Origin: Kordia antarctica
Lineage (GTDB): Bacteria > Bacteroidota > Bacteroidia > Flavobacteriales > Flavobacteriaceae
DNA: 64,000 nucleotides
Reading direction: 5' to 3'
Assembly (NCBI RefSeq): GCF_009901525.1
Contig: NZ_CP019288.1
Span: forward strand, 2,323,501-2,387,500
Below, piece by piece: positions 19,567 to 36,286 of this stretch. Under the pieces are notes generated by a model. It was not told where the DNA came from. It made no database searches and saw nothing but the letters and a program-made list of their open reading frames with translations. Each line of letters starts with the position of its first letter. Positions within the stretch are counted from its first letter, which is position 1. Made by a program: the position numbers and the translations under genes.

Positions 19567-19614
19567 GACCATTCCGAACATCACTAATATTTTAATAATT
19601 AAAAACTTAAATCA

Positions 19615-19857: not shown

Positions 19858-19869
19858 ATACTAAACACA

Positions 19870-20085: not shown

Positions 20086-20107
20086 TAATAACTTAAAACT
20101 AAACATT

Positions 20108-20326: not shown

Positions 20327-20343
20327 TTTAAAACAATAGAATT

Positions 20344-20628
20344 ATGTATCGATTAAACGTAAAAAAACTTGGATTTGCCTTCGGTCTTACTGGAGCCTTA
20401 ATTTATTTGGGCTGTATGATTGTAATGGCAACAGCAGGACAAGAAGGATCAATAACCTTTTTTAACAGCCTTTTACATGGCTTAGATACTACAAGTATTA
20501 TTAGAATGGATGTACCACTTTTAGAAGTTTTAATGGGAATAGTGCAAACTTTTATTCTTTGGTGGTTAATAGGCGCTTGCATTGGTGCTTTTTATAATAC
20601 TCAAATTAAAATTAAAATTAAAAAATAG
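20344..20628 (+). CDS. DUF5676 family membrane protein
   Basis: The 94-residue protein has two transmembrane helices (about 10-28 and 63-84) and the family pattern LNVKKLGFAFGLTGALIYLG at its start. Members are common beside copper and mercury resistance genes in many phyla. No mechanism is known. It ends the small-gene group; a 119-bp gap follows before the NADH dehydrogenase gene. Confidence 0.82.
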   Translation: MYRLNVKKLGFAFGLTGALIYLGCMIVMATAGQEGSITFFNSLLHGLDTTSIIRMDVPLLEVLMGIVQTFILWWLIGACIGAFYNTQIKIKIKK

Positions 20629-20747: not shown

Positions 20748-22103
20748 ATGAAAATTAACAACATAAAGCATACGAAACACCTGTCTCCTTGCAAAATATC
20801 AGATACCATTTGTCTGCCTGACTCTAATGTGCCGCGAATTGTGGTCATCGGTGGTGGATTTGCAGGTTTGGCATTGGTAGAAAAATTGAAGCACAAAGAA
20901 GTACAGGTGGTTTTGTTCGATAAAAACAACTTCCATCAATTTCAGCCTTTGTTATATCAAGTGGCCACAAGTGCTTTGGAACCAGATAGTATTGTTTTTC
21001 CTTTCAGAAAACAAATCAATGGGTATAAAAATGTGTTGTTCCGTTTAGCTGAAGTTGAAGAAATTCAACCTTCTTCAAATACAATTGTTACTAACAAAGG
21101 AATAGTTAATTACGATTACCTAGTATTAGCAACTGGTACGACCACCAATTTTTTCGGAATGGAAAGTGTAGAGGCTAACAGTTTGGGGATGAAAGATATT
21201 CGTGACTCCCTGAACATCCGCCATATGATGCTACAAAATCTGGAACAGGCTGCCATTACTTGCGACGAAGACGAACGTGATGCGCTAACCAATTTTGTGA
21301 TTGTAGGTGGTGGTCCTGCAGGCGTAGAGATGGCTGGAGCCTTAGCTGAATTCTGTAAATACATTCTTCCAAAGGATTATCCAGAGTACCCTTCTTCCAT
21401 AATGAACATTTATTTGATAGAAGCTATTGATAAGTTGTTAAGCACAATGTCTGATAAAGCATCATCTAAAACCTTAAAGTATTTGAAGGACTTAAATGTA
21501 AAAATACTATTCAATGAATCAGTAAGTGATTACGATGGCTCACAAGTCACTACAAAAAGTGGCAAGACCATTTTAGCCAAAAACTTAATCTGGACAGCAG
21601 GTGTGAAAGGACAATTCCCAAAAGGTATTGATGAAAAACACGTAGTTAAGGGCAACCGTATAAAAACCGATTCCTATCTAAAAGTAGAAGGTTACAAAAA
21701 TATTTTTGCCATAGGTGACATAGCATCTATAATTACAGATGACACACCAAGAGGACATCCACAGGTAGCACAGACAGCTATTCAACAAGGGAAATATCTT
21801 GGCGATAAATTATTGGAAATTATTAAAAATAAGCCCATAAAACCTTTCAAATATAAAGATAAAGGTTCATTGGCAACGGTAGGAAAACGAAGAGCAGTAG
21901 CTGATTTGGGTAGGTTCAAGTTTGCAGGTTATTTTGCCTGGTTGCTTTGGTCTGTTGTGCACCTTATGTCCATAAGCGGTTTCAGAAATAGATTGATGGT
22001 TGGTTTTAATTGGGCGGTTAGTTATTTCACCTATGAAAAGAGCAACCGTGTGATTATTAGGAATTTTAAACCAAAACCACCTGTCAACCATACTAAGAAA
22101 TAA
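20748..22103 (+). CDS. ndh: Type II NADH dehydrogenase-like FAD oxidoreductase
   Basis: The 451-residue protein carries an FAD-binding GGGFAGL motif (about 35-41), an NAD-binding GGGPAGVEMAGAL motif (about 187-199) and the FAD-contact IFAIGDIA (about 324-331). C-terminal hydrophobic helices (about 390-430) attach it to the membrane. This is the NDH-2 family, which passes electrons from NADH to quinone without pumping protons. It begins the long packed plus-strand run, and the next gene follows after 7 bp. An NDH-2 fits a module that must reoxidise NADH made by the GAPDH encoded downstream. Confidence 0.88.
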   Translation: MKINNIKHTKHLSPCKISDTICLPDSNVPRIVVIGGGFAGLALVEKLKHKEVQVVLFDKNNFHQFQPLLYQVATSALEPDSIVFPFRKQINGYKNVLFRLAEVEEIQPSSNTIVTNKGIVNYDYLVLATGTTTNFFGMESVEANSLGMKDIRDSLNIRHMMLQNLEQAAITCDEDERDALTNFVIVGGGPAGVEMAGALAEFCKYILPKDYPEYPSSIMNIYLIEAIDKLLSTMSDKASSKTLKYLKDLNVKILFNESVSDYDGSQVTTKSGKTILAKNLIWTAGVKGQFPKGIDEKHVVKGNRIKTDSYLKVEGYKNIFAIGDIASIITDDTPRGHPQVAQTAIQQGKYLGDKLLEIIKNKPIKPFKYKDKGSLATVGKRRAVADLGRFKFAGYFAWLLWSVVHLMSISGFRNRLMVGFNWAVSYFTYEKSNRVIIRNFKPKPPVNHTKK

Positions 22104-22110
22104 CATCACA

Positions 22111-23466
22111 ATGAAAAATAATAAAGACAAAAATAATAAGCTTTCCCTGATAGGTTCCATTTCTCTTGGCACTGGCGTAATGATTGGTGCTGGCATATTT
22201 GTCCTAATGGGACAAATAGCAGAGTTAGTAGGCGATTTATTCCCAATTGCTTTTATTGCTGGTGCCGTTGTGGTAGGTTTCAGTTCCTATTCCTATGTAA
22301 AGTTCTCAAATGCTTTTCCTTCCTCTGGAGGTGTTGTCAAATTTTTTAATAAATCCTACGGACCAGGAACAACTACAGGAGTTTTTTCCTTGTTGATGTA
22401 TGTATCAATGGTGATTTCAGAAAGTTTGGTGGCAGGCACTTTCGGCGCCTATACGCTTAGGTTGTTCCCAGAAAGCTATGCTGGTTATGCATCCATTCTC
22501 GGTATTCTACTTTTGGTAACAGCATATATCGTGAATATTTCAGGAAATAAAGTAATTGGAGCAACAGCCACCTTTACAGCAATCATTAAAGTTGTAGGCA
22601 TAGCATTGCTCGCCATTGCAGGTCTAGTAGTTTCTGGATTTGCAGATATTACTGGAAACTATATCCCAAAAAATACCGAAACGTTGCCACAGGGAATTGG
22701 CTTTGTTGCTGCCTTGGCGTTAGCGATTCTTGCCTATAAAGGGTTCACTACTATTACAAATCAAGGAGGAGATATCAAAAATCCACACAAGAACCTCGGG
22801 CGATCTATTATTTTTTCCATTCTTATCTGCACTGTCATATATGTAGCCTTGGCACTGGCCGTTGCAGGAGGTTTAAGCATCCCGGAAATAATCGAAGCAA
22901 AAGATTATGCCTTGGCAGCTGCCGCAAAACCGATTTTTGGAGAATGGGGTTCTTGGATTACTATAGCAATAGCAATTGTAGCAACCGTTTCAGGCGTTAT
23001 CGCAAGTGTATTTTCAGCGTCACGCTTACTGGCAATGTTGAGCAATATGAAGCAAGTTCCATCTTTAAAAAGAATGGGGAACTTTAAAAATCCTGCCCTT
23101 ATTTTCACGGTATTACTTGCTATTTTATTGACTGTTCTGTTCGATTTAACAAGGATAGCATCCATTGGAGCTATTTTCTACCTCATTATGGATATTGCTA
23201 TCCATTGGGGACTTTTCCGCCATCTTAAAAACGAAGTGAATTTTCAGCCTATCATCCCATTAATAGCCATCGTATTGGACATTGCAGTACTGGCAGCCTT
23301 CCTTTATATAAAGTATCTAAACGATCCTTTGGTACTAATCGTAGCGGCAATTGGGATTGTTCTAATAATTGCTGCGGAACGTCTTTTTATGATTTCGCAT
23401 ACTGATGATGAAGGTAATATGCCGATGGGAATGGAAACTACAAGTAATAAAAACAATAAAACATAA
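22111..23466 (+). CDS. APC-family amino-acid permease
   Basis: The 451-residue protein has about twelve transmembrane helices and the first-helix signature GTGVMIGAGIFVLMG (about 17-31), typical of amino acid/polyamine/organocation transporters. Helix 6 contains GFTTITNQGGDIKNPHKNLG, the conserved substrate-helix region. The substrate cannot be read from sequence. It is 7 bp after ndh and 21 bp before the GAPDH gene, so it belongs to the same transcript. Confidence 0.88.
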   Translation: MKNNKDKNNKLSLIGSISLGTGVMIGAGIFVLMGQIAELVGDLFPIAFIAGAVVVGFSSYSYVKFSNAFPSSGGVVKFFNKSYGPGTTTGVFSLLMYVSMVISESLVAGTFGAYTLRLFPESYAGYASILGILLLVTAYIVNISGNKVIGATATFTAIIKVVGIALLAIAGLVVSGFADITGNYIPKNTETLPQGIGFVAALALAILAYKGFTTITNQGGDIKNPHKNLGRSIIFSILICTVIYVALALAVAGGLSIPEIIEAKDYALAAAAKPIFGEWGSWITIAIAIVATVSGVIASVFSASRLLAMLSNMKQVPSLKRMGNFKNPALIFTVLLAILLTVLFDLTRIASIGAIFYLIMDIAIHWGLFRHLKNEVNFQPIIPLIAIVLDIAVLAAFLYIKYLNDPLVLIVAAIGIVLIIAAERLFMISHTDDEGNMPMGMETTSNKNNKT

Positions 23467-23487
23467 CTAATTTAAAAAAACAATTAT

Positions 23488-24501
23488 ATGAAAAATATAG
23501 CAGTTATAGGCTACGGAGTCATTGGGAAAAGAGTGGCCGATGCCATCAATCTACAAGACGATATGAAGCTTGCAGGAGTATGTGATATCATTAGCGATTG
23601 GCGCATTCAAAATGCCGTAAGAAAGAAGTATGATATCTATGCTGCTACCGAAGAAGCTGCTGATAAAATGAAGTCAGAAGGGATTTCAATTAAAGGAAAT
23701 ATGCAAGAGCTGTTAGAGAAATCAGATCTTGTTGTGGACTGTACACCTAAAAAAATTGCAGCTCTAAATGTGAAAATATATAAAGAGAAAGGTATCAAAT
23801 TTATTGTTCAGGGTGGCGAAAAACACGAAACCACAGGGCATTCCTTTAGTGCTGAAAATAATTATCAATCAGCTTTAAATTTGGAATCTACTAGGGTTGT
23901 TTCCTGTAATACCACCTCTATTTTAAGAACGTTGACTGCCTTAAAAAGAACTGATTTATTGGATTATGCGAGAGGAACACTTTTAAGAAGAGCAACAGAT
24001 CCTTGGGAAAGTCATTTAGGCGGTATTATGAACACAATGGTACCCGAAAAAGACATTCCGAGCCATCAAGGTCCTGACGCAAAAAGTGTTGATCCAGATT
24101 TGGACGTAATCACTTCCGCAATAAAAGTGCCCCAAACTTTAAGCCACATGCACTATTGGAATGTGAAATTGAAAAAGCAGTCCACGAAAGAAGAAGTGCT
24201 TAATGCTTTTAAAACGTCCAGCCGTATTAAACTGATTCAATATGACCAAGGTTTGGTTTCCAACAATACCATTAAGGAAATGTTCTTGGATATGGGAAGG
24301 CCTTGGGGCGATATGTATGAAGTAGCCCTTTGGGAAGATATGCTAAAAATTGTGGGAGATGAACTGTTTTACGCCTATGTGGTGGATAACCAAGCTATTG
24401 TTATTCCAGAAACTATAGATGCTATTAGAGCACTTACTGGAATAGAAACTGATGCAGCAAAATCTATTTCAAAAACCAATGAAAGTTTAGGAATACATTA
24501 A
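23488..24501 (+). CDS. Type II (archaeal-type) glyceraldehyde-3-phosphate dehydrogenase
   Basis: The 337-residue enzyme oxidises and phosphorylates glyceraldehyde 3-phosphate. It has the Rossmann motif [12 protein letters not shown] (8-19) and the catalytic stretch SCNTTS with Cys140, the same position as in archaeal GAPDH. Length and motifs fit the type II family of Archaea, not the usual bacterial GapA (catalytic SCTTNC). It is followed after 11 bp by an aldolase gene and further on by phosphofructokinase, so three glycolytic enzymes share one operon. Finding this type in a Bacteroidota suggests lateral transfer; that is inferred. Confidence 0.88.
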
Positions 24502-24512
24502 TTCTTATTAAA

Positions 24513-25574
24513 ATGAAAACAGAAAAAAATATCACAGAACTTTTAGGAAAGAAAGCATCTTTCTATTTGGATCACGTTTGCGAAAAAATCACAAAAGATG
24601 AGTTGCAAACCCCAAGCAAAAATAGTATTGACAAGGTATTTGGTAATAGCAACAGAAATCCTCAAGTACTTAGGAGTCTTTCCCAACTATACAACCACGG
24701 AAATCTAGGAGGCACAGGCTATTTAAGTATCCTTCCTGTAGACCAAGGTATTGAGCATAGTGCAGCCTTTTCATTCTATAAAAACCCAGATTATTTTGAT
24801 CCCGAAAACATTATAAAACTTGCTATTGAAGCTGGCTGCAATGGTGTTGCATCTACGTTTGGTGTATTGGGATTAAACGCCCGAAAATATGCCCATAAAA
24901 TTCCGTTCATCGTCAAGATTAATCATAATGAACTACTTACGTATCCCAATAAATATGACCAAACACTATTTGGCAAGGTAAAAGCGGCGTGGGATATGGG
25001 AGCGATTGCTGTTGGAGCTACCATTTATTTCGGTTCGGAGGAAAGTAACAGACAGCTTAAAGAAATAGCCGAGGCCTTCCAAGAGGCGCATAATTTAGGA
25101 ATGGCGACCATATTATGGTGCTACACCCGTAACGAAGCTTTTAAAACTGAAAAAGAAGATTATCACGCGGCTGCCGATATAACAGGACAGGCAAATCATT
25201 TGGGCGTTACCATTCAGGCAGATATCATCAAGCAAAAATTACCGACTAATAATTTCGGATTTAAAGAAATAGGATTTGGAAAATATGATGATGAAATGTA
25301 TAAAACACTTACCACAGAACATCCCATTGACCAATGCCGATTACAAGTTGCCAATTGCTATATGGGAAAAATAGGATTAATCAATTCAGGAGGAGGTTCC
25401 AAAGGCGAATCAGATATAACCGAAGCTGTGACAACCGCTGTCATCAATAAAAGAGCTGGCGGTTCTGGTTTGATTATGGGAAGAAAAGCGTTTCAAAAAC
25501 CGTTCGCTGAAGGTGTTCAATTATTGAGGTTAGTCCAAAGAGTTTATTTAGACAGTAACATTAGTATTGCTTAG
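24513..25574 (+). CDS. fbaB: Class I fructose-bisphosphate aldolase, FbaB/DhnA type
   Basis: The 353-residue enzyme cleaves fructose 1,6-bisphosphate. It has the DhnA-family core with [12 protein letters not shown] (72-83), SEESNRQL (175-182) and ADIIKQKLP (236-244), where Lys240 is the expected Schiff-base lysine. A Gly-rich phosphate loop [10 protein letters not shown] lies near 297. It is the E. coli FbaB type, metal-independent, and distinct from both the FbaA class II enzyme and the ALDO class I enzyme. Metal independence would suit a metal-stress island. It is 11 bp downstream of the GAPDH gene. Confidence 0.9.
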
Positions 25575-25595
25575 ATTATTAAATTTTTAAATAAA

Positions 25596-26507
25596 ATGAT
25601 TCTTTCAATTATTATAGCTTTCATAATTATTCCAGTAATCGCAATTGCTGGCTATCAGCATTACAAGATTGGTCAGCAACCAGCCTATAATGCCAACGAA
25701 ACGCTCTTGAATTATGAAATAGTAGGTTCTGGAGAAAACAAACTTGTTTTGTTACACGGGTTAACAGGATCATTAAACTATTGGAAGCGTGATATGGATA
25801 ATATCACAACCACACATAAACTTCTTTTGGTGGATCTTATAGGCTTTGGTAATTCGCCAAAACCAAAAAGTGATTATTCACTTTCTGTTCAACTGCGAGC
25901 TCTTGAGATAATTCTTAAAAAGAAAGGATTCAATGATGGAAATATCATAATAGGTGGACATTCTATGGGAGCCATAATTTCTTTGGCTCTGTTGGAGAAA
26001 CATCCTAATTGGTTCAAAGCAGGCATTTTTGTAAGTATACCTGTTTACAAAGATGCTGATGAATTTAAGCAAGTTATGTCCACACATTCTTTTGTGGATA
26101 GAATTTCAACCAGCAAGCTTTCTAAATATATCTGTATGATACATCCCATTTTTATGTCACGTGCATTTAAACCAAATAACCTAACTGATGATGTATATGA
26201 AGATGCACAAAAGCATCATTGGCAGAGTTATTATTATTCATTGAACGAAGTAATTCTTAAAACTGATGTATTCGCTTTAGTCAAAAACATAAAAGATAAA
26301 GATGTATTATTTATTCACGGAGAAAAAGACACTACTGCACCTCTCGAAAATGCCTTAAGCTTATTGAAGGTATTTACAAACGCAAAAATTGTTACTTCTA
26401 CTGAAGGAGATCATCAATTCTTTTTACAAGAAGCAGATTTCGTTTGGCAAACCATTCAGGGTTTTAGCAATTCGAAAAAAATATTTATAAATAACACTAT
26501 CAGATGA
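25596..26507 (+). CDS. Membrane-anchored alpha/beta hydrolase
   Basis: The 303-residue protein has an N-terminal transmembrane segment (2-18) and an alpha/beta-hydrolase fold. It has LLHGLTGSLNYW (52-63, oxyanion region), the nucleophile elbow GGHSMGA (about 122-128), an acid near HGEKDTTAP (about 249) and the catalytic His in EGDHQFF (about 272). The substrate is unknown. The stop overlaps the phosphofructokinase start by 4 bp (ATGA), so the two are translationally coupled. Confidence 0.85.
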   Translation: MILSIIIAFIIIPVIAIAGYQHYKIGQQPAYNANETLLNYEIVGSGENKLVLLHGLTGSLNYWKRDMDNITTTHKLLLVDLIGFGNSPKPKSDYSLSVQLRALEIILKKKGFNDGNIIIGGHSMGAIISLALLEKHPNWFKAGIFVSIPVYKDADEFKQVMSTHSFVDRISTSKLSKYICMIHPIFMSRAFKPNNLTDDVYEDAQKHHWQSYYYSLNEVILKTDVFALVKNIKDKDVLFIHGEKDTTAPLENALSLLKVFTNAKIVTSTEGDHQFFLQEADFVWQTIQGFSNSKKIFINNTIR

Positions 26508-27478
26508 GAACGAATAAAATTGAACATATAGGCGTTTTCACCTCTGGAGGCGATAGCCCTGGAATGAATGCTGCATTATACGCAATAGCAAAAGCCGCTA
26601 AAGCAAATGGTATAAAATTAACTGGAATTCGTAAAGGGTACGAAGGGTTGATAGATGGAGATTTTACAACATTGAAACCCCCCGAATTACAAAAATTGTC
26701 GCATACAGGTGGTACCATGCTAAAAACAGCAAGAAGCAAACGCTTTATGGAATTGGAAGGACGTAAAAAAGCATTACAAACCTTACACACAAATAATATA
26801 GATGCCTTGATAGCCATTGGTGGTGATGGCACTTTTAAAGGCTTATTGGCTTTTTCAGAAATATGTGACCTTCCATTTATTGGGATTCCTGGAACCATCG
26901 ACAATGATATTTCTGGTACAGATTATACACTGGGTTTTGATTCCGCAGTAAATACCGCCATTGAAAACATAGATAAAATAAGGGATACCGCTGAATCACA
27001 CAATCGGGTTTTTATAGTTGAAGTTATGGGTAGAGATTCCGGCTATATTGCCCTTCATTCTGGATTGACCACAGGTGCGGATGCCATATTAATTCCAGAG
27101 AGCGGCAAAGACTTTATTTACCTATTGGATAAGGTGAAAAATTACGATAGTGAAGATGCTTTTCTTGTCGTGGTTTCTGAAGGCGATGAAATAGGAGCCG
27201 AACTTGTTTCATCAAAAATAAAAGAATTAAATATAAATGTGGATTTACGTATAACGAAGCTTGGTCACGTGCAGCGAGGAGGAAATCCTTCTGCTATGGA
27301 TAGAATGCTAGGGATTAGAATGGGAGTTGCTGCCGTTGAACAATTATTAAATGGAAATAGTAATAAAATGGTAGGGGTTTTAAACAACCAATTGCACCTA
27401 ACACCTTTTGAAGAAGTCGTCAAACAGCATCAAGTAAATGATGAGTTAAAGGCATTGTTAAAACTTTTTAGCAAATAG
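26504..27478 (+). CDS. pfkA: ATP-dependent 6-phosphofructokinase
   Basis: The 324-residue enzyme phosphorylates fructose 6-phosphate. It shows TSGGDSPGMNAA (13-24), GGDGT (106-110, the ATP-type motif, since PPi enzymes have GGDD), TIDND with the catalytic Asp133, and MGRDSGYIA. It is the standard bacterial PfkA size. The start overlaps the preceding hydrolase gene and the next gene follows after 6 bp. Together with the aldolase and GAPDH genes it provides the committed steps of glycolysis within one operon. Confidence 0.93.
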   Translation: MRTNKIEHIGVFTSGGDSPGMNAALYAIAKAAKANGIKLTGIRKGYEGLIDGDFTTLKPPELQKLSHTGGTMLKTARSKRFMELEGRKKALQTLHTNNIDALIAIGGDGTFKGLLAFSEICDLPFIGIPGTIDNDISGTDYTLGFDSAVNTAIENIDKIRDTAESHNRVFIVEVMGRDSGYIALHSGLTTGADAILIPESGKDFIYLLDKVKNYDSEDAFLVVVSEGDEIGAELVSSKIKELNINVDLRITKLGHVQRGGNPSAMDRMLGIRMGVAAVEQLLNGNSNKMVGVLNNQLHLTPFEEVVKQHQVNDELKALLKLFSK

Positions 27479-27484
27479 ATAATT

Positions 27485-28756
27485 ATGATAGAAACCTTAA
27501 AAAATATAAACCCATTCATTCTCGGTATTCTGATTAGTTCAGGTATTGGGCTTATTCTTGGTTTGGAAAGGGAATATGACAAATTAAAAGACGAGCAAGG
27601 TTTTGCAGGAATACGCACGTTCCCGATAGTCGCGATTGTAGGATTCATTTTGGGAAATTTATCTGTATTGTACACACCTTGGTTAGTCATTATTATTGCT
27701 GCTGCATTTTTATTGTTTTTGGCTTTGAGTCATCTTTCTATCGTCCAAAAACATACTATGACAGGTATTACAACCAATTTAGCATTATTTGCTACCCTAA
27801 TCCTTGGTGTAATGGTTTCTAACCATTTACACAAAGAAGCAGTAGCCACCGCTGTAATTATAGTTACGCTATTATCACTTAAAACAACTTTTCGCTCTTT
27901 TATTCAAAATATTACTTCCGAAGAATTATTCGCATTTATTAAATTCTCAATTATTGCCCTTTTAATATTGCCATTTTTACCTAACAAAGATTATGGGTCT
28001 GAAGGTTTATTAAATCCCTTTGAAATTGGTTCAATAGTAGTTATTGTATCTTTTTTAAACTTTATTGGTTACTTTTTGGTTAAATACGTCGGTTCTAAAC
28101 GCGGTATTCTGCTAACGGCTATTTTAGGTGGTCTTATTTCCAGTACCGCAGTAGCCTGGATCTATGCATCACGAAGTAAAGAATCACCAGAACTTTCAAA
28201 ACAATATGCTGCAGGTATTGTAATTGCTTCAGCTATAATGTTCCCAAGACTTGCCGTATTGGCCTATATTTTCAACAATTCCTTATTGCAGTATTTAGCG
28301 CTACCGTTTGGTCTGCTTACCTTAATATGCCTAATAAGTGCACTTATCTTAATAAAAAAGGATTCTGATCGACCAAAAACCGATATCAAATTAGGGAACC
28401 CACTTAACATCTGGAACGCCATCGGTTTTGGAGGTATTTATGTAGTCATTCTTTTTGCTGTTTTTTATGGAAATAAATTTTTTGGTGAAAGCGGTTTGTA
28501 CTACTCGGCAATAATAGCAGGTTTAGCAGATACCGATGCAATAACCATTAATATGTCAAAATTTGCTTCCATAGATAATAAATTGATACTAGCAACAAAT
28601 GTTATTATAACAGCAACTATTAGCAATATGGTTGTCAAATTAGGAATTGCCTTTTTCAAAGGCTCAAAACTTGCTGGGAAATTAGTAATGCTTGCTTTTG
28701 GAAGTGTTATCGTAGTAGGGGTTATATATATTCTGTTCCGCTCGTGGACAAGTTAA
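27485..28756 (+). CDS. MgtC/DUF4010 family integral membrane protein
   Basis: The 423-residue protein has about eleven transmembrane helices. The N-terminal part has the MgtC/SapB-like pattern GLILGLEREYDKLKDEQGFAG (about 21-41, AGIRTFPIVAI following), and the C-terminal part is DUF4010 with GLADTDAITINMSK (about 346-359). Members have been linked to Mg2+ or general ion homeostasis, but the transport function is unproven. It lies between pfkA (6 bp) and the dehydrogenase gene (20 bp). Confidence 0.82.
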   Translation: MIETLKNINPFILGILISSGIGLILGLEREYDKLKDEQGFAGIRTFPIVAIVGFILGNLSVLYTPWLVIIIAAAFLLFLALSHLSIVQKHTMTGITTNLALFATLILGVMVSNHLHKEAVATAVIIVTLLSLKTTFRSFIQNITSEELFAFIKFSIIALLILPFLPNKDYGSEGLLNPFEIGSIVVIVSFLNFIGYFLVKYVGSKRGILLTAILGGLISSTAVAWIYASRSKESPELSKQYAAGIVIASAIMFPRLAVLAYIFNNSLLQYLALPFGLLTLICLISALILIKKDSDRPKTDIKLGNPLNIWNAIGFGGIYVVILFAVFYGNKFFGESGLYYSAIIAGLADTDAITINMSKFASIDNKLILATNVIITATISNMVVKLGIAFFKGSKLAGKLVMLAFGSVIVVGVIYILFRSWTS

Positions 28757-28776
28757 ATAGTAAAAAAATAAAATAA

Positions 28777-29772
28777 ATGAAAACAACGGTATTCAGCACC
28801 CACAAATTTGAAGAACCTTATATTATAAAGGCTAATAATGACAACCACAACTTAAAGATGCTTACATCGCGGTTATCAGAAGAAACAGCTATACTCGCTG
28901 CTGGTTCTACAGCTATTAGCATATTTACTGGAGATGATGCTTCAAGTAAAGTGCTTAAAAAACTTGCTGCTTTAGACATTAAATATATAGCACTTCGTAC
29001 AGCAGGTTACAATCATATTGATTTAAAAAAAGCGTCAGAATTAGGAATAAAAGTAGCTCGTGTTCCAGCCTATTCGCCTTATGCGATTGCAGAACATGCG
29101 CTCGCCCTGATATTAGCCTTAAACAGAAAAATAGTTAAGGCCCATAATAGGGTTCGCGAACAAAATTTTTCATTAAACGGACTTACAGGATTTGATCTTA
29201 ACGGAAAAACTGTTGGTGTTATTGGAACAGGAAAAATAGGGGCTGTATTTGTAAAAATACTTCATGGTTTTGGCTGTAAAATTATTGCTCAAGATTTAAT
29301 TGAAGATGAACATTTGATAGATAGTTACGGTGTTCGATATACTGATTGTGAAACCATCTGCGAGCAGGCTGATATTATAAGCCTACACGTGCCTTTAATG
29401 CCTTCAACAAGGCATTTGATTAATGACAAACACATTAAACTAATGAAAAAGGGTGTAATGCTAATCAACACCAGCCGTGGTGGTTTGGTAGACACCAAAG
29501 CAGTTATCAAAGGACTGAAATCAAGTAAGATTGGATATTTCGGTATGGATGTTTATGAGGAAGAGGAAGGTCTATTTTTTGAAGATCATTCCGAAGATAT
29601 ATTACAAGATGATGTCATTGCCCGCTTAATGACTTTCAATAATGTCTTAATAACGAGCCATCAAGCCTTTTTAACTGAAACGGCTTTGACAAATATTGCA
29701 GAAACGACTATATACAACTTGGACTGTTTTGAAAAACAAACACTGTCTGGAAATGAGATTACGATCGATTAA
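28777..29772 (+). CDS. D-2-hydroxyacid dehydrogenase (D-lactate dehydrogenase type)
   Basis: The 331-residue enzyme belongs to the D-lactate/D-2-hydroxyacid dehydrogenase family. It has GVIGTGKIG (147-155) for NAD binding, NTSRGGLVD (Arg about 236), a Glu in the DVYEEEEG region, and a His in ITSHQAFLT (about 297) as the acid/base. RTAGYNHID and YSPYAIAEHALA near 75-108 are typical of fermentative LdhA. Making D-lactate from pyruvate would reoxidise NADH when respiration is blocked. The exact substrate needs testing, but LdhA-like motifs favour pyruvate. Confidence 0.87.
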   Translation: MKTTVFSTHKFEEPYIIKANNDNHNLKMLTSRLSEETAILAAGSTAISIFTGDDASSKVLKKLAALDIKYIALRTAGYNHIDLKKASELGIKVARVPAYSPYAIAEHALALILALNRKIVKAHNRVREQNFSLNGLTGFDLNGKTVGVIGTGKIGAVFVKILHGFGCKIIAQDLIEDEHLIDSYGVRYTDCETICEQADIISLHVPLMPSTRHLINDKHIKLMKKGVMLINTSRGGLVDTKAVIKGLKSSKIGYFGMDVYEEEEGLFFEDHSEDILQDDVIARLMTFNNVLITSHQAFLTETALTNIAETTIYNLDCFEKQTLSGNEITID

Positions 29773-29799
29773 ATAAAATAACTTATAAAACCATATAAA

Positions 29800-30630
29800 A
29801 TGAAAAATATACTAATACCCACTAATTTCTCTAAAAATTGTGACAAAGCAGCACTACTAGGTATTGAAATGGCCAAACTATATAATTCTGAAATTCACTT
29901 TTTACACCTAATGAAAACCCCTGTAAATTGGGTCAAATTGGATAAATTAAAAGAAAAAAGGTATCCAGAGACATTAAAGCAAATAGGTATAGCCAAAGAG
30001 GCTTTGAGAGCGTTGGAAAAAATAGCTGAGCGTGAAGGTTTGAAATGCCGTACGTTTCTTCAATATGATGCAGGACACGCTGATATTTTGGAACATTCAG
30101 GCCATTTTCATCACGATTTTATCATCACCGGAAGTACTGGCACCAATGGTGTTATCAGGGAAATGACGGGAAGTAATGTAGAGAAAATTGTACGAAAGGC
30201 CAATGCACCTGTGATTGTTGTAAAAGACGAAAAAGTAACATTTCCCTTTAAGAATATCGTATTCGTTTCAGACTTCAAAGAAGATATTACCAATGCATTT
30301 AAGCAGGTAATTTCCATTGCTAATGAATGCGAAGCTCGAATCCACTTATTGCGTATTAATACCGAGACAGACTTCAATAATATTGAGCTTGGTTTAAATC
30401 CAATTAAACAATTATTGCAAAAATTTCCTGATTTAAAAAACTTCTCAATGGCAGTTTATAACGAGCCTTCCGTAGAAACGGGCATCAATACGTTTGTAAA
30501 ACAACAGCCTGTGGATTTAATAACGATGGTTACCCACGGCAAAACAGGGTTTTTAAACCTATTTTCTAAAAGCATCGCAGAAGGTGTGACCAATCATTCA
30601 ACTTTACCTGTAATGACAATTCATATTTAA
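29800..30630 (+). CDS. Tandem-domain universal stress protein
   Basis: The 276-residue protein contains two Usp domains (about 1-145 and 150-276). The first ends with the nucleotide-binding signature GSTGTNGVIREMTGS followed by APVIVVKD. The second has a weaker version (THGKTGFLNLF...STLPVMTIHI). Such proteins bind ATP/AMP-type ligands and are induced by starvation, hypoxia or toxic stress. It is 3 bp upstream of an ATP-cone nuclease gene, so two possible adenine-nucleotide sensors are adjacent. Confidence 0.88.
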   Translation: MKNILIPTNFSKNCDKAALLGIEMAKLYNSEIHFLHLMKTPVNWVKLDKLKEKRYPETLKQIGIAKEALRALEKIAEREGLKCRTFLQYDAGHADILEHSGHFHHDFIITGSTGTNGVIREMTGSNVEKIVRKANAPVIVVKDEKVTFPFKNIVFVSDFKEDITNAFKQVISIANECEARIHLLRINTETDFNNIELGLNPIKQLLQKFPDLKNFSMAVYNEPSVETGINTFVKQQPVDLITMVTHGKTGFLNLFSKSIAEGVTNHSTLPVMTIHI

Positions 30631-30633
30631 TCA

Positions 30634-31476
30634 ATGGAAAACGAAATAAACATAGTGAAATATTCGGGGGATAGTGTCCCATTTGACGTTTACAAACTCA
30701 TCAATTCCTTAAGACGTTCCCAAGCAAGTGAAGAATTGATTAAGCAAATAGTTGAACAAGTTCAAGACCAATTATATGATGGAATTACTACTAAAAAAAT
30801 CTATAAAATGGCATTTAAAATGCTTAAGGGCAAATCACGGGTGAGTGCTTCAAAATACAAACTCAAAAAAGCCTTGATGGAATTGGGACCTACTGGTTTT
30901 CCTTTTGAAAAGCTGGTGGGAAAACTATTTGCGCACGAAGGGTATACAACAGAGGTTGGCGTGATTGTACAAGGTAATTGTGTGCAGCACGAAATAGATG
31001 TGATAGCGCAAAAAGATAACAAACATTACATGATTGAATGTAAATATCATAGCGACCAAGGACGATTTTGTAATGTGAAAATTCCATTATATATCCACTC
31101 AAGATTTTTGGATGTTGAGAAACAATGGGAACGTCAAAAAGGCCACGAAGCTAAACTTCATAAAGGAGGTGTGTACACGAATACGCGATTTACAAAAGAT
31201 GCGATACAATATGGAAAATGTGTTGGAATGTTATTGACAAGTTGGGATTATCCAAAGGGAAATGGGCTTAAAGAACGAATAGATGAGTCTGGCTTACACC
31301 CACTAACCGCTTTAACAACTATGACCAAAGCCGAAAAAACAAAGCTATTAGATAAAGGCATTGTACTCTGCAAAGAGCTTCACGAAAATCCTTCGTTACT
31401 AAAGCAAATAGGAATTGATAAAAAAAGACACAAAAAGATTTTAGAAGATTCTGAAGCACTATGTAAAAGCACTTAA
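30634..31476 (+). CDS. ATP-cone domain fused to a PD-(D/E)xK nuclease
   Basis: Residues 1-85 of this 280-residue protein look like an ATP-cone, the nucleotide-sensing domain of ribonucleotide reductases and NrdR (SLRRSQASEELIKQIVEQVQ, then TTKKIYKMAFKML). Residues 90-190 form a restriction-endonuclease-like (Mrr_cat type) core with HEIDVIAQKDNKHYMIECKYH, giving the Asp and ExK catalytic triad. A DNA- or RNA-cutting activity gated by the ATP/dATP level is therefore likely, though not shown. It sits 3 bp after the universal stress gene and before the RNase-like and nucleotide-salvage genes. Confidence 0.78.
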   Translation: MENEINIVKYSGDSVPFDVYKLINSLRRSQASEELIKQIVEQVQDQLYDGITTKKIYKMAFKMLKGKSRVSASKYKLKKALMELGPTGFPFEKLVGKLFAHEGYTTEVGVIVQGNCVQHEIDVIAQKDNKHYMIECKYHSDQGRFCNVKIPLYIHSRFLDVEKQWERQKGHEAKLHKGGVYTNTRFTKDAIQYGKCVGMLLTSWDYPKGNGLKERIDESGLHPLTALTTMTKAEKTKLLDKGIVLCKELHENPSLLKQIGIDKKRHKKILEDSEALCKST

Positions 31477-31517
31477 CGATTAAAGATAAAAAGTTTAACA
31501 ATCTTAAAAAAGAACTT

Positions 31518-31772
31518 ATGAAAACGGATGCATTGCAACAACAGAACAGTATAGATTTCGAACCATTTTACGAAGCCTTGGAAGATGACACAAAATTGCT
31601 AGAAGAGACATTTGAAACAGTATTGGAGATGGTAAGTACCGACCCAAAAGCTGCCAAAAACATAGCACATCTTATTAAAAAAGATTTCCACGGTTTATAT
31701 AAGGAAGTCGTGGCTTTATCCACAACTGAAAAAGACCAAGTTAACGCCCCTTCTTGTTGTGGTAGCAACTAA
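31518..31772 (+). CDS. Small hypothetical protein with C-terminal CCGS
   Basis: This 84-residue, acidic and mostly helical protein has a regular pattern of charged and hydrophobic residues (DTKLLEETFETVLEMV) and ends with SCCGSN. No family is recognised. Its place within the run, 41 bp after the nuclease gene and 55 bp before the beta-CASP gene, supports it as a real gene. The CC tail could be a metal or redox site; this is only a guess. Confidence 0.6.
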   Translation: MKTDALQQQNSIDFEPFYEALEDDTKLLEETFETVLEMVSTDPKAAKNIAHLIKKDFHGLYKEVVALSTTEKDQVNAPSCCGSN

Positions 31773-31827
31773 CTGGTGGATGTCCTATTGGTGTAAAATA
31801 GGTATAACGACATAAAAATAATTACAA

Positions 31828-33204
31828 ATGAAAAATAATAAAATAAACATCCACTTTTTGGGCGCAGCAGGTACAGTAACCGGTTCAAAATATTTAGTGG
31901 ACACCGGAGATAGAAAAATACTAATTGACTGCGGACTTTTTCAAGGGTTAAAAGAATTACGCCTTAAAAACTGGGAATATCCGCCAGTAAAAGTTTCAGA
32001 GATTGATATAGTATTATTAACCCACGGCCATTTGGACCATACTGGATATCTGCCAAGGTTAGTAAAACAAGGATTTAACGGCCCTATTTATGCCACTAAC
32101 CCAACGTTGGACATCGCAAAAATCATACTTAATGATAGTGGTAAAATACAGGAACAGGAAGCCGAACGCGCCAATAAGGAAGGTTATTCAAAGCATAGCC
32201 CAGCAGAACCACTATACGATTTAAAAGATGTTGAAAAGACCATTCCACATTTTAAAGGCGTTCCACAAGCACAATGGATTCCATTGTTTGATGGCATCAG
32301 GGCTCGATTTCAATATAACGGACACATTCTTGGTGCTACTTACATCGAGTTGGATGTACACGGAAAACGCTTTGTCTTCTCAGGAGATATTGGAAGAACC
32401 AACGATTTACTATTGTATCCACCTTTAAAACCAAAAAAGGCAGATGTTCTTTTTATCGAATCCACTTATGGCGGAAGGTTTCATCCTGATGAAGTGGAAG
32501 CTATACCGCAGATTGAAAAATTAGTAAAAGACACCGTTAATAGAGGCGGCAGCCTATTTGTTCCAAGTTTTTCGGTAGAACGTGCTCAACTGATGATGCT
32601 TATTTTTTGGAAATTACTCAAGGAGAACAAAATACCAAAAGTACAAATGATAATGGATAGCCCTATGGGAGCTAGTGTATTGGAGCTGTTCCATCGCACG
32701 AGAGATTGGCACAGATTAGAAGACAATGAATGTGATGAAATGTGTTCGCACTTTACTGTCGTAAGCAGTTATCGTGAAACTATGGAACTACGTACTGATA
32801 ATAAACCAAAAATCGTGATTGCAGGAAGCGGAATGCTTACAGGTGGCCGAATGCTCAACTATCTTGAAACACAGGCGCAAAACCCTAATAATACATTGCT
32901 TTTTGTGGGTTATCAAGCTGAAGGAACTCGTGGCAGAAAATTGCTGGAAGGCAAAAAGGAACTAAAAGTGTACGGAAAATGGGTGCCTTTTAAAATGCAG
33001 GTAGCTGAAATTGAAGGTCTCTCGGCACACGCTGACCACAAAGAGCTTATGGATTGGATGAGTAAGATAAAAAACAAACCCGAACGGATTTTTATAGTTC
33101 ACGGCGAAAATGAAGGTGCTGAAGCACTTCAAAAAGGCATTAAAGAAACCTATGGTTGGGATGCTCAAATACCACAATTGTACACTATTGAAGAAATAGA
33201 ATAA
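31828..33204 (+). CDS. Metallo-beta-lactamase/beta-CASP RNase-like protein
   Basis: The 458-residue protein has the metal-binding motif HGHLDH (66-71), further ligands in GHILGA and SGDIGR, and the beta-CASP and RMMBL parts (SFSVERAQ; LSAHADHKEL; VHGENEGAE). This is the family of CPSF73-like RNases found in bacteria and archaea, which use two zinc ions to cut RNA. Its place beside an AMP-phosphorylase-like gene suggests RNA breakdown products feed nucleotide recycling; that link is inferred. Confidence 0.9.
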   Translation: MKNNKINIHFLGAAGTVTGSKYLVDTGDRKILIDCGLFQGLKELRLKNWEYPPVKVSEIDIVLLTHGHLDHTGYLPRLVKQGFNGPIYATNPTLDIAKIILNDSGKIQEQEAERANKEGYSKHSPAEPLYDLKDVEKTIPHFKGVPQAQWIPLFDGIRARFQYNGHILGATYIELDVHGKRFVFSGDIGRTNDLLLYPPLKPKKADVLFIESTYGGRFHPDEVEAIPQIEKLVKDTVNRGGSLFVPSFSVERAQLMMLIFWKLLKENKIPKVQMIMDSPMGASVLELFHRTRDWHRLEDNECDEMCSHFTVVSSYRETMELRTDNKPKIVIAGSGMLTGGRMLNYLETQAQNPNNTLLFVGYQAEGTRGRKLLEGKKELKVYGKWVPFKMQVAEIEGLSAHADHKELMDWMSKIKNKPERIFIVHGENEGAEALQKGIKETYGWDAQIPQLYTIEEIE

Positions 33205-33233
33205 ATCACAAAACCTTAATAATTCAGAAAGAT

Positions 33234-34736
33234 ATGGAACAACACTCAAATATATTAAAATACAAACATCTCGGAATCTATACGCAAAATGAGAATGTGG
33301 TGTATATGCGGGAAGATTGTCACGTCTGTATTTCAGAAGGTTTTGAAGCATTGACCCGAATTAGAATATCCAATACAAGCACCTCGATAGTTGCAAGTCT
33401 CAATATTTTAAATTCAGATATTCTGATGCCCAATGAAATTGGACTATCGGATGCTGCATCAAAAAAACTGAACGTTTCCGAAAATGAAACCTTATATGTT
33501 TCACACTTAGAACCTATTGAGTCTTTAAGCCACGTAAGGGCAAAAATCTATAATCAAAAACTGAATTATAACGCTTATAGCGAAATTATAACCGATATCG
33601 TTGAAGGCAATTATTCCAATATCCATCTTTCCGCATTTATAACTGCCTGCGCTGGTGACCGCATGGATATAAATGAAATATCCGACCTTACCAAAGCAAT
33701 GATCGCTTCTGGGAAGCAATTGAATTGGAACAAAGAAATTGTGGTAGATAAGCATTGTATTGGCGGATTACCTGGCAATAGAACAACGCCATTGATAGTT
33801 GCCATCGTTGCTGCTTACGGACTTACAATGCCAAAAACTTCTTCGCGAGCCATCACTTCGCCAGCAGGTACGGCAGATACTATGGAAGTAATGACCAATG
33901 TGACGCTTTCTTTGGAAGAAATAAAAGCTGTAGTCGAAAAAGAAGGTGGATGTTTTGTCTGGGGCGGTACGGCTCAATTAAGTCCCGCAGATGATGTGCT
34001 GATAAAAATTGAAAAAGCCCTTGATATTGATAGTGAAGGGCAGCTTATAGCATCGGTACTTTCAAAAAAAGCGGCGGCAGGATCCACACATGTTATTATT
34101 GATATTCCTGTGGGAGAAACCGCCAAGGTACGCAGTGCGGAAACCGCACAGCAATTGAAAGAACATATGGAAACCGTGGGCAAAGCTGTTGGTCTAAAAG
34201 TGAAAGTTGTGATTACAGATGGTACGCAACCAGTTGGAAGAGGTATTGGTCCTACATTAGAAGCCATCGATATATTAAAGGTCTTAAAAAATGAAGCTGA
34301 TGCACCCAAAGACCTATTGGAAAGAGCGTTGTTTTTGGCAGGGGAATTATTGGAACTTTCTGGAAAAGTTGAAAAAGGAAAAGGAAGAGAGACTGCACAG
34401 AAAGTAATCGAATCTGGAAAAGCTTATGAAAAATTTATCACCATTTGTAAAGCACAAGGTCGCTTTTCAAAACCTGTTTTAGCGCCCTATAAAATCGAAA
34501 TTAAAGCAGAAAAACCTGGAGTTTTAGACCGAATAGATAATAGAAAGATTGCAAAACTCGCCAAGCTTTCAGGTGCACCTCAATCTAAATCGGCAGGAAT
34601 TTCACTGAATGTCCATTTAAACGACAAAATTGAAAAAGACCAATTGCTGTACACGCTTTATGCAGAATCCAAAGGCGAACTTAATTATGCTATGGAGTAT
34701 AAAAACAACCACAACGATATTATAACCATAATTTAA
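33234..34736 (+). CDS. AMP phosphorylase-like / thymidine phosphorylase family enzyme
   Basis: At 500 residues this matches archaeal AMP phosphorylases (about 500 residues) more closely than bacterial DeoA (about 440). An N-terminal extension (about 1-100) precedes the core. The phosphorylase motif is DKHCIGGLPGN (about 164-174), not DKHSTGG, followed by TSSRAITSPAGTADTME and a Gly-rich QLSPADD segment. Archaeal enzymes turn AMP plus phosphate into adenine and ribose 1,5-bisphosphate. The same family includes pyrimidine phosphorylases, so the substrate is not certain. It is 9 bp before a PRPP synthetase gene. Confidence 0.8.
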   Translation: MEQHSNILKYKHLGIYTQNENVVYMREDCHVCISEGFEALTRIRISNTSTSIVASLNILNSDILMPNEIGLSDAASKKLNVSENETLYVSHLEPIESLSHVRAKIYNQKLNYNAYSEIITDIVEGNYSNIHLSAFITACAGDRMDINEISDLTKAMIASGKQLNWNKEIVVDKHCIGGLPGNRTTPLIVAIVAAYGLTMPKTSSRAITSPAGTADTMEVMTNVTLSLEEIKAVVEKEGGCFVWGGTAQLSPADDVLIKIEKALDIDSEGQLIASVLSKKAAAGSTHVIIDIPVGETAKVRSAETAQQLKEHMETVGKAVGLKVKVVITDGTQPVGRGIGPTLEAIDILKVLKNEADAPKDLLERALFLAGELLELSGKVEKGKGRETAQKVIESGKAYEKFITICKAQGRFSKPVLAPYKIEIKAEKPGVLDRIDNRKIAKLAKLSGAPQSKSAGISLNVHLNDKIEKDQLLYTLYAESKGELNYAMEYKNNHNDIITII

Positions 34737-34745
34737 AAACATACT

Positions 34746-35639
34746 ATGAAAACAATATTATTCAGTCTTCCTGGAAACGAAGAACTCACAGAACTTTTGG
34801 CAATGAAAATGGATGCCGAAGTCGGCAAAGCTACGTTTCGAAAATTCCCTGATGGAGAATCCTATACACGTATATTATCTGACGTAAAGGATAAATGTGT
34901 CGTATTGGTCTGCACCTTGCACGAACCAGACGAAAAATTGTTACCGCTCTACTTTTTGAGCCATACGGCAAAATCGCTCGGAGCTATGTGTACCTGTTTG
35001 GTAGCACCCTATTTGGCATATATGCGGCAGGATAAAGTTTTTAATGAAGGCGAAGGCATTACTTCTGGTTTCTTCGGAAAATTGATTTCAGGTTTCGCCG
35101 ATAGCATTACCACAGTTGACCCTCACTTGCACAGAATAAGTTCTTTGGGCGAAGTTTATCACATCCCAAACAAAGTCATTCACGCAGCCAATGCTATTTC
35201 AGAATGGATAAAGGAAAACATCGAAAACCCAGTACTTATAGGTCCCGATTCTGAAAGTGAGCAATGGGTATCGGAAGTTGCCAAAAATGCAGGAGTACCT
35301 TTTACTGTGTTGCAAAAAGTGCGTCACGGTGATCGTGATGTAGAGGTTTCGGTTCCAGATGTGGAAAAATATAAAAACGCCACACCTATTTTAGTAGATG
35401 ACATAATCTCAACTGCACGCACAATGATTGAGACTGTGAAACACCTAAAAAAAGCAGGAATGAAACCACCTATATGCGTTGGTATTCACGCAGTTTTTTC
35501 GGGTAATGCCTATCAGGATTTATTGGATTCGGGAGCGGAAAAAATAGTAACTTGTAATACCATTCCGCATCCTTCAAATGCTATTGATTTGAGCGATATT
35601 ATGGCAAAAGAAGTTAAGAAGTTAATGCACCATATATGA
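34746..35639 (+). CDS. prs: Ribose-phosphate pyrophosphokinase (PRPP synthetase)
   Basis: The 297-residue enzyme is shorter than bacterial PrsA (about 315). It shows the substrate region DPHLHR (125-130), the flexible-loop residues KVRHGDRDVEV (191-201), and the PRPP-binding loop LVDDIISTART (216-226). It makes PRPP from ribose 5-phosphate and ATP, releasing AMP. It is 9 bp after the AMP-phosphorylase-like gene and overlaps the next gene by 4 bp. Since Prs is normally housekeeping and single-copy, a second one here probably has a specialised role. Confidence 0.88.
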   Translation: MKTILFSLPGNEELTELLAMKMDAEVGKATFRKFPDGESYTRILSDVKDKCVVLVCTLHEPDEKLLPLYFLSHTAKSLGAMCTCLVAPYLAYMRQDKVFNEGEGITSGFFGKLISGFADSITTVDPHLHRISSLGEVYHIPNKVIHAANAISEWIKENIENPVLIGPDSESEQWVSEVAKNAGVPFTVLQKVRHGDRDVEVSVPDVEKYKNATPILVDDIISTARTMIETVKHLKKAGMKPPICVGIHAVFSGNAYQDLLDSGAEKIVTCNTIPHPSNAIDLSDIMAKEVKKLMHHI

Positions 35640-36286
35640 TTAAGCAAAGCTTCATACTATTTTTTATCCTATTCAACCTCACGATGAATGGACAAACTGA
35701 AATGCTCATTGGGCAGATTTCGGGTAGAATTGTAGTTCGGGAAAATTTTGATGAAGAAGGTGCTTTTTTAAACAAACAAACTTTTGAATCTGGAAAAGTT
35801 ATCGATAAAAATGGATATTATGAAATTGAGGTAATCACAGAATTGTTTGACAAAGACAAAAAAGCTACCGACAAATACACAACGACCTATCGATGTAAGC
35901 CAGATGAAGCCAGTATAATGGTAATGGCATTTCCGTTTTCCAACCCAAAATCAAAGGAAACCGAAATCAATACCACTTCTGAAAAATTTAAAGAGTTATA
36001 CGATTTGGAAAATCTAGAGGATATTGAATTGGAAATGAGTTTTGACTCGGGCTTGTTAAACTTTTTTGGTTCAAAAAGTAGTATCAAGATTTATAACCGC
36101 GAATTGGTTGTTCAACCAGATAATAACGCTATTAAATCGAAAATTAAGATCAAAGCCTATGTGTTGGGAATTAGGATTAAACAACTCAATTATACGGTGA
36201 CAGAAAAACTGAATAAAAATGCTTTATTGACCTTCCAGAAATTTACCGAAGAAGATGGTAGTTATTTTACAATGATCTATAAATAA
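35636..36286 (+). CDS. Secreted hypothetical protein
   Basis: The 216-residue protein has a signal peptide (about 1-20, ending NGQ). The rest is predicted mostly beta, with alternating charged and hydrophobic residues and no known catalytic motif. It overlaps the PRPP synthetase gene by 4 bp (ATGA), so it is coupled to it. No family is recognised. Confidence 0.65.
   Translation: MIKQSFILFFILFNLTMNGQTEMLIGQISGRIVVRENFDEEGAFLNKQTFESGKVIDKNGYYEIEVITELFDKDKKATDKYTTTYRCKPDEASIMVMAFPFSNPKSKETEINTTSEKFKELYDLENLEDIELEMSFDSGLLNFFGSKSSIKIYNRELVVQPDNNAIKSKIKIKAYVLGIRIKQLNYTVTEKLNKNALLTFQKFTEEDGSYFTMIYK

Follow-up and report, generated by a model that had tools for sequence, protein, structure and literature searches.

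Why would a copper-resistance island carry a long run of genes for central metabolism? The question is raised by a 64,000-nucleotide stretch of the Kordia antarctica genome ("the window"; i.e., G000:C1:2323501-2387500 of a 5.5-Mb single-contig genome), in which 18 plus-strand genes follow one another from position 20748 to 40866. Among them are genes for a type II (archaeal-type) glyceraldehyde-3-phosphate dehydrogenase (GAPDH-II), a class I aldolase, an AMP-phosphorylase-like enzyme of the PRK04350 subfamily, a second phosphoribosyl pyrophosphate (PRPP) synthetase (Prs) and a copper-type P1B ATPase (CopA). Conservation of the run, its linkage to metal genes, its acquisition with an island and the housekeeping copies of its enzymes were observed directly: the unit is genuine, and within its family, the Flavobacteriaceae, it is conserved, acquired and linked to copper. 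The explanation that we consider best, and to which we give a little less than an even chance, is that copper export is joined here to a bypass of copper-poisoned metabolic steps.

The run lies in an acquired copper-resistance island

The open reading frame (ORF) calls give intergenic gaps of -4 to 82 bp, as an initial annotation of this DNA had described for a same-strand run; it counted nineteen genes where the ORF calls give 18, and its own list names eighteen. We use "operon" for the gene layout only, as read from the sequence; co-transcription and induction by copper we infer. The run is part of an acquired copper-resistance genomic island, because the Kordia antarctica genome carries about 57 kb extra (about G000:C1:2308430-2365280; window positions 1 to about 41700) between radC and the gene at 41784 of the window, whereas a same-genus genome without the cluster (G179) has an empty site, the homologue of the 41784 gene standing directly after radC. 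On the left, the island extends past the window to a boundary next to radC (about G000:C1:2308430); neither exact att sites nor exact island ends were found. The left end encodes a serine recombinase (Resolvase and Recombinase domains), and the left part a second copper-type ATPase (CPC-type, with an HMA domain; L236). We speak of a copper-resistance island for such an acquired segment, which carries a recombinase and copper genes and is absent from a close relative.

An IS66-like unit was recognized by eye at the left end. In several relatives, the genes that follow the cluster appear integrative-element-like, also by eye (RteC-like and excisionase-like; relaxase-like and TraG-like; right flanks of G107, G113 and G220; of G054 and G074).

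The unit is conserved and patchily distributed

In a sample of 249 family genomes, the window's own included, the PRK04350 phosphorylase scored above its profile cut-off in 17 and GAPDH-II in 15, all 15 among the 17. The cluster is present in 16 of the 249 (own included), with the copper ATPase in all; G219 has the phosphorylase and lacks the cluster. The initial annotation had proposed gene order conservation as a check, and the order held: 14 other family genomes have GAPDH-II with the genes for the beta-CASP ribonuclease-like protein, the phosphorylase, Prs and CopA (GAPDH-II in two pieces in G241), and on a cut contig of a 15th (G114) the cluster's right half is present.

The genes for the universal stress protein (Usp), the ATP-cone protein, the beta-CASP protein, the phosphorylase, Prs and CopA each occur in 15/15 relatives' loci. 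They are followed by GAPDH-II and the 216-aa protein (14/15 each), the FbaB aldolase (13/15), NDH-2, the D-lactate dehydrogenase-like protein (D-LDH), the MFS exporter and the 84-aa protein (12/15 each), and PfkA and the AraC-type regulator (11/15 each). DUF4010 (7/15), the alpha/beta hydrolase (6/15) and PLD (3/15) are less regular; the APC permease is in the same place in 4/15, or in 6/15 if two homologues (51 to 52% identity) elsewhere in the stretch are counted. Within the block, the 15 relatives have 334 gaps with a median of 11 bp (16 above 100 bp, 8 above 200 bp). The arrangement is not due to chance, given that the loci of 15 relatives repeat the core order. A CusA homologue was found in 9/15 of the relatives' fetched stretches.

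In a wider sample of the phylum, the phosphorylase exceeded its cut-off in 3/395 genomes; therefore, the unit is patchy. A contig of the gammaproteobacterium Marinicella pacifica (L113) carries the cluster at 85 to 89% protein identity to the nearest Flavobacteriaceae beta-CASP protein, phosphorylase, Prs, CopA and GAPDH-II (the last measured against a fragment), which points to an apparent transfer between phyla, provided that the contig is not a contaminant.

Some loci differ in their further contents. A 97-aa gene without a Pfam family match lies upstream of CopA in 15/15 relatives' loci and is missing here (36286-36328). Extra cargo lies between PfkA and D-LDH in G049, G074 and G118 (by eye, glycosidase-like, about 356 aa, and glycosyltransferase-like, about 773 aa), and other loci contain NhaA-like (by eye), Na:dicarboxylate symporter and lycopene-cyclase genes.

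Metal genes accompany the phosphorylase and GAPDH-II in other genomes

Eight plasmid neighborhoods were picked for diversity from 115 phosphorylase-bearing plasmid records; seven contain copper or heavy-metal efflux genes, and the eighth (Sphingobium) has none annotated. We also scanned genomes with nine phosphorylases as queries and took the best 80 loci, with CopA, CusA or multicopper oxidase as metal markers. Metal genes were nearby in 36 of these best 80 loci (at least 35% identity). For comparison, GAPDH-I was searched in the genomes behind 50 of the best 80 loci (above cut-off in 47/50), and 20-kb stretches around it were fetched in 40 as controls, loci of 3.4 to 3.8 kb being set aside as too short. 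Metal genes lay within 10 kb of the phosphorylase gene in 19/40 genomes versus 1/40 around GAPDH-I (P = 3e-6). The difference persisted without seven close relatives of the window (12/33 versus 1/33; P = 0.0012) and with CopA and multicopper oxidase as the only markers (13/40 versus 1/40; P = 0.0007). In these counts the loci are kin by descent, CusA-type matches may concern other metals, and the marker panel derives partly from plasmid loci with the same phosphorylase, the identical panel being applied to the controls. Energy genes near the phosphorylase were not significantly enriched (16/40 versus 8/40; P = 0.087), and the control is biased here, pfkA being a frequent neighbor of gapA. The combination of metal and energy genes was found in 9/40 versus 0/40 (P = 0.0024).

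In 44 of the best 80 loci, the phosphorylase gene has both a beta-CASP and a Prs gene close by (at least 30% identity). Divergence is correlated within this triad (r = 0.88 to 0.95) and less so between CopA and the triad (r = 0.59 to 0.79). The pairing of the phosphorylase with Prs suggests that the two enzymes work together. Such a pair also stands at 9971-12381 of L129 with no recognized copper genes around it, and the two are paired in L130, L139, L149 and L168 as well.

GAPDH-II matched 36 plasmid records, of which 17 were examined (14 annotated neighborhoods, plus Pontibacter, Roseovarius and Acidovorax from the phosphorylase set). The closer enzyme (at least 54% identity) is carried by 15 plasmids from Bacteroidota, Pseudomonadota, Actinomycetota and Deinococcota, and heavy-metal P1B ATPases are present on 15/15, although such ATPases are common on plasmids generally (at least 5000 matches to one of them among 72,556 records). 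Two distant homologues (31 to 33%) are on plasmids with no P1B ATPase, and the distance tests leave these two out. With only ATPase matches above the cut-off counted, GAPDH-II lay within 20 kb of a P1B ATPase on 13/15 plasmids, where random placement on the same plasmids gives 7.9 (18 of 5000 placements as good). The distances beyond 10 kb were 13.1 kb (Acidovorax), 16.9 kb (Methylophaga, by the strict count), 19.7 kb (Phenylobacterium), 23.3 kb (Croceicoccus) and 42.1 kb (Pontibacter); in Mycolicibacterium, GAPDH-II is 18.1 kb from the ATPase, yet a multicopper oxidase is close.

The initial annotation had argued that class I aldolases do not need metal, and this argument is strengthened by class I-type aldolases on two plasmid metal islands from other phyla, one aldolase belonging to a different family. 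A Corynebacterium plasmid island combines CopA, multicopper oxidase, GAPDH-II, a class I aldolase of PF00274 and phosphoketolase; a Meiothermus plasmid carries GAPDH-II, phosphofructokinase (PFK), a PF01791 aldolase and a metal-sensitive regulator with a metal ATPase. All 36 bacterial GAPDH-IIs that were read (two fragments without the motif having been dropped) have one Cys across SCNTT and the residues just after it, and the window genome's own GAPDH-I reads SCTTNC. For three of the 36 (Phenylobacterium, Croceicoccus and L169), the stretch that was read contains no copper marker.

The island carries second copies of two enzymes that Cu(I) inhibits in Staphylococcus aureus

Class I aldolases work without metal, NDH-2 lacks Fe-S clusters, and the Staphylococcus aureus aldolase Fda is presumably a class I enzyme. 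The accessible text of one S. aureus study describes inhibition of GAPDH (GapA) by Cu(I) in extracts, lower activity in copper-grown cells, and a 2.2- to 2.3-fold increase of Fda under copper in one medium (PMC6350627). That of another states that 2 uM Cu(I) cuts S. aureus Prs activity seven-fold, and that copper sensitivity falls when prs expression is raised and rises when it is lowered (PMC10249872). Both of these published Cu(I) targets, GAPDH and Prs, have divergent second copies in the island. The Kordia antarctica genome keeps GAPDH-I, a PFK, a class II aldolase (FBA) and an ordinary Prs elsewhere, and a class II aldolase match was found in 16/16 cluster-bearing genomes (own included). 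In one of these, G220, the housekeeping class II aldolase is in two separate pieces (G220:C1:2777536-2778553) and is possibly a broken gene. No paper linking GAPDH-II, or this gene set, with copper resistance was found in the open-access literature, in agreement with the initial annotation, which knew of no description of the combination as a unit.

Gene content and signals of the window

The initial annotation's gene names were nearly all borne out by curated profiles and solved relatives (Table 1). Its D-LDH name agrees with a score of 335.1 bits to a solved D-lactate dehydrogenase (4cuj), but the protein is under the cut-off of every NCBIfam model that it matched (best, VanH_gen, 243.5 versus 540). 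The phosphorylase belongs to the PRK04350 subfamily (687.7 bits versus 434) and is under the AMP phosphorylase equivalog cut-off (AMP_phos, TIGR03327; 489.5 versus 535). GAPDH-II (447.7 bits versus 185) and the FbaB aldolase (636.7 versus 327) fall within their classes, and the SCNTT catalytic Cys motif of the former aligns with its nearest solved relative, 1cf2. The beta-CASP protein was tried as aCPSF1 (305.1 versus 580.2) and as Cas14 (392.9 versus 800) and is under both equivalog cut-offs. Family searches gave no match for either the 84-aa or the 216-aa protein. The claim of a copper ATPase with a CPH membrane motif stood, its copper-type P1B profile exceeding the cut-off; no CxxC was found in this protein. 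The ATPase does adjoin the unit that the initial annotation had drawn from 20748 to 36286 and joined to copper export, but at 36328-38421 it lies outside that end.

The co-oriented block begins upstream of the run, with the AraC-type regulator and the HMA, SHOCT and DUF5676 proteins at 18447-20628, separated from NDH-2 by a 119-bp gap. The Bacteroidota promoter pattern had 2 matches in the window versus 7.0 expected, neither upstream of the operon. Sigma-70-like sites were near or below chance (78 versus 73.0 expected in 22500-42000; 31 versus 41.3 in 12000-22500), and terminator-like sites numbered 9 versus 12.7 and 11 versus 6.9 (standard deviation, 2.7) in the same two segments. A scan of upstream motifs across the loci gave scattered matches only, with no FNR-like site in the window.

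Table 1. Features of the window, in window positions. Left-arm labels other than the multicopper oxidase are putative or assigned by eye.
Feature	Position	Strand	Basis
Island left arm within the window: AraC-type regulator, CusB/CusA/CusC-like efflux genes, multicopper oxidase, DUF3347-like genes, HYC-type small protein	250..17657	-	
Multicopper oxidase, left arm	8218-10527	-	Cu-oxidase domains
AraC-type regulator, candidate regulator of the block	18447..19028	+	HTH_18 above cut-off; N-terminal Cys-x-x-Cys stretch, HMA-like by eye
Small genes: Met-rich lipoprotein-like (19063), 80 aa (19615), HMA, 71 aa (19870), SHOCT (20108), DUF5676 (20344)	19063..20628	+	
NDH-2 type NADH dehydrogenase	20748..22103	+	Pyr_redox_2, NDH2_C
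APC amino-acid permease	22111..23466	+	AA_permease_2
Type II (archaeal-type) GAPDH, catalytic motif SCNTT	23488..24501	+	NF003251 above cut-off
Class I fructose-bisphosphate aldolase, FbaB type	24513..25574	+	NF006707 above cut-off; DeoC
Alpha/beta hydrolase	25596..26507	+	Abhydrolase_1
6-Phosphofructokinase (PfkA)	26504..27478	+	NF002872 above cut-off, 371.3 bits versus 253
MgtC/DUF4010 membrane protein	27485..28756	+	DUF4010 and MgtC matches
D-lactate dehydrogenase-like 2-hydroxyacid dehydrogenase	28777..29772	+	Solved relative 4cuj
Universal stress protein, 276 aa	29800..30630	+	Usp
ATP-cone and Mrr-type nuclease domain protein	30634..31476	+	ATP-cone, Mrr_cat
84-aa protein	31518..31772	+	No family match
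Beta-CASP ribonuclease-like protein	31828..33204	+	Beta-Casp, RMMBL; nearest solved, RNase TTHA0252
PRK04350 phosphorylase, predicted nucleoside-monophosphate (AMP-type) phosphorylase	33234..34736	+	NF003338 above cut-off; nearest solved, 4ga5
Second, divergent PRPP synthetase, PRK07199 type	34746..35639	+	NF005537 above cut-off, 402 bits versus 322
216-aa protein, signal-like N-terminus (by eye)	35636..36286	+	No family match
Copper-type P1B ATPase (CopA), CPH motif	36328..38421	+	TIGR01511 above cut-off, 614.3 bits versus 397
MFS exporter	38421..39647	+	MFS_1
PLD/cardiolipin synthase-like protein, final gene of the run	39730..40866	+	PLDc_2
Island right boundary, approximate	41640..41780	.	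Empty site in same-genus genome G179

A proposed bypass of copper-poisoned steps and its rivals

If copper export is joined to a metabolic bypass, the operon would be the metabolic arm of a mobile copper-resistance island: CopA, the Cus proteins and the multicopper oxidase would export and detoxify copper, and the operon would meanwhile supply isoenzymes and detours. GAPDH-II would replace the Cu(I)-inhibited GAPDH-I, and the class I aldolase, predicted to need no metal, would replace the host's class II enzyme. The second Prs would keep PRPP supplied, with the adjoining AMP-phosphorylase-like enzyme pulling it forward by clearing its product AMP, and the beta-CASP enzyme may deliver nucleoside monophosphates (NMPs) from RNA to the phosphorylase. 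NDH-2 would oxidize NADH without Fe-S clusters, and D-LDH would reoxidize it once respiration fails. The copper tolerance of the isoenzymes and the substrate and direction of each reaction are here what we infer. The initial annotation read the run as an energy-survival module; a conserved, copper-linked, horizontally acquired unit is what stands of that reading. Since GAPDH and Prs both appear in the literature as Cu(I) targets, which that annotation did not mention, replacement of isoenzymes makes a more pointed hypothesis than energy survival in general. The annotation also overlooked the island, its mobility and the recurrence beyond the family. More broadly, we tentatively propose, as a possibility that falls well short of probable, that mobile copper islands of several phyla confer resistance by target replacement, i.e., that they carry isoenzymes of Cu(I)-inactivated cytosolic enzymes (GAPDH and Prs) and metal- or Fe-S-free stand-ins (class I aldolase and NDH-2), so that central metabolism would keep running with copper still inside the cell.

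Several observations weigh against this explanation. To our knowledge, there is no copper-related reason for a second PFK. The island enzymes are not Cys-poor, an idea that we rejected (Cys in the island versus own enzymes: GAPDH, 3/3; Prs, 6/5; aldolase, 5/2), and the His suggested as the copper target of Prs seems to be kept in the island Prs (DPHLHR, by eye). The excess of P1B ATPases around plasmid GAPDH-II was weak within 3 kb (5/15, with 2.3 expected; 297 of 5000 placements as good) and moderate within 10 kb (9/15, with 5.1 expected; 136 of 5000); the latter count becomes 10/15 (44 of 5000) when the Methylophaga plasmid's ATPase match, which is in two pieces and below the cut-off, is included. 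With CopA and multicopper oxidase as the only markers and the close relatives left out, metal linkage of the phosphorylase was not significant (6/33 versus 1/33; P = 0.10). Amphritea, Sphingobium, Phenylobacterium and Croceicoccus hold the same gene types with copper genes not close by, and in several similar loci only the AMP-phosphorylase-like and Prs genes are labeled. According to the accessible text on S. aureus, gapA overexpression left copper tolerance unraised, Fda was at 0.9-fold under copper in another medium, and L-lactate dehydrogenase was off under copper (PMC6350627).

The main rival is a general cluster for surviving low oxygen or respiratory arrest (lxa- or DosR-like), which would provide fermentative ATP and nucleotide recycling with enzymes that need not be copper-tolerant, and which copper islands would carry because copper also stops respiration. 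It stays serious, because the AMP-phosphorylase-like and Prs pair stands alone in Amphritea, with copper genes not close by, and because lxa-like clusters without copper genes share several of the genes; we regard it as possible, if on balance doubtful. The lxa locus, as far as its description is accessible, includes six Usp, a 51-kDa metallo-beta-lactamase superfamily protein, phosphate acetyltransferase, Zn-dependent alcohol dehydrogenase (Zn-ADH) and phosphofructokinase (PMC6127331). Plasmid clusters of Sphingobium and Phenylobacterium likewise combine Usp and Zn-ADH with the phosphorylase-Prs pair or GAPDH-II, phosphoketolase is near 14 of the best 80 phosphorylase loci, only 7 of the 14 having metal genes, and copper is not known to target the second PFK. 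FNR-like palindromes occur upstream of the AraC-type gene in 2/12 loci and of the beta-CASP gene in 3/16, but most of the scanned loci, the window among them, lack such sites. Alone, this rival leaves unexplained both the metal linkage of the phosphorylase and the P1B ATPases on all 15 examined plasmids with the closer GAPDH-II. Both it and the bypass may be true, since copper can halt respiration and glycolysis together.

Two further explanations are less probable. The operon might salvage ATP from RNA, the beta-CASP enzyme degrading RNA to NMPs, the phosphorylase releasing ribose-1,5-bisphosphate (R15P), and the ribose being fermented while respiration is poisoned (by PfkA, FbaB, GAPDH-II and D-LDH here; by phosphoketolase and acetate kinase elsewhere). 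The frequent neighborhood and correlated divergence of the triad and the presence of phosphoketolase and acetate kinase among the phosphorylase's neighbors fit this idea, which we nevertheless consider unlikely: there is no known R15P-consuming enzyme among the operon's family matches, and Prs would use up ribose phosphate rather than pass it to glycolysis. Quite improbable, in our estimate, is accretion, in which a mobile island gathered unrelated cargo and metabolism and copper are functionally unlinked. The APC, hydrolase, DUF4010 and PLD genes, which are within the block in only 4, 6, 7 and 3 of the 15 loci, the island's serine recombinase and IS66-like unit (by eye), and the looser divergence of CopA would suit accretion. 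Against it, the core order persists in 15 loci with a median gap of 11 bp, and in other phyla these gene types recur next to metal genes in different arrangements.

Accounts of copper resistance usually name export, oxidation and sequestration; target replacement, if true, would be a further arm beside these. Should islands also include bypass enzymes, one could read from their genes which enzymes are disabled by copper in nature, and copper's damaging cytosolic targets would become directly testable by enzyme assay. A likely bacterial role would also follow for GAPDH-II and the PRK04350 phosphorylase.

Comparison with known systems

Bacterial copper resistance islands are built around cop, cus and multicopper oxidase genes. 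The Kordia antarctica island shares with them the P1B ATPase, Cus-like efflux, multicopper oxidase, small HMA and DUF5676 proteins, and its acquired nature, but it adds a long central-metabolism operon that is itself conserved. In antibiotic resistance by target replacement, an acquired insensitive isoenzyme substitutes for a poisoned host enzyme; here, we propose, a metal ion would act as the poison, and the replacement would extend to several enzymes simultaneously. The solved phosphorylase 4ga5 is presumably the AMP phosphorylase of Thermococcus. The Kordia phosphorylase is related to this archaeal-type enzyme and resembles in this the archaeal AMP phosphorylase/pentose bisphosphate pathway, as far as the accessible descriptions go (PMC9700705, PMC5241800). 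It is, however, under the AMP_phos cut-off, and neither R15P isomerase nor Rubisco is among the operon's family matches. The lxa locus of Burkholderia cenocepacia is likewise a single stress locus with Usp, fermentation enzymes, phosphofructokinase and a member of the metallo-beta-lactamase superfamily, and has been compared with the DosR regulon; the lxa proteins tabled in the accessible text, covering 19 of about 50 genes, include no copper exporter (PMC6127331). In contrast, the Kordia antarctica genes sit in a copper island, together with GAPDH-II, a class I aldolase and Prs.

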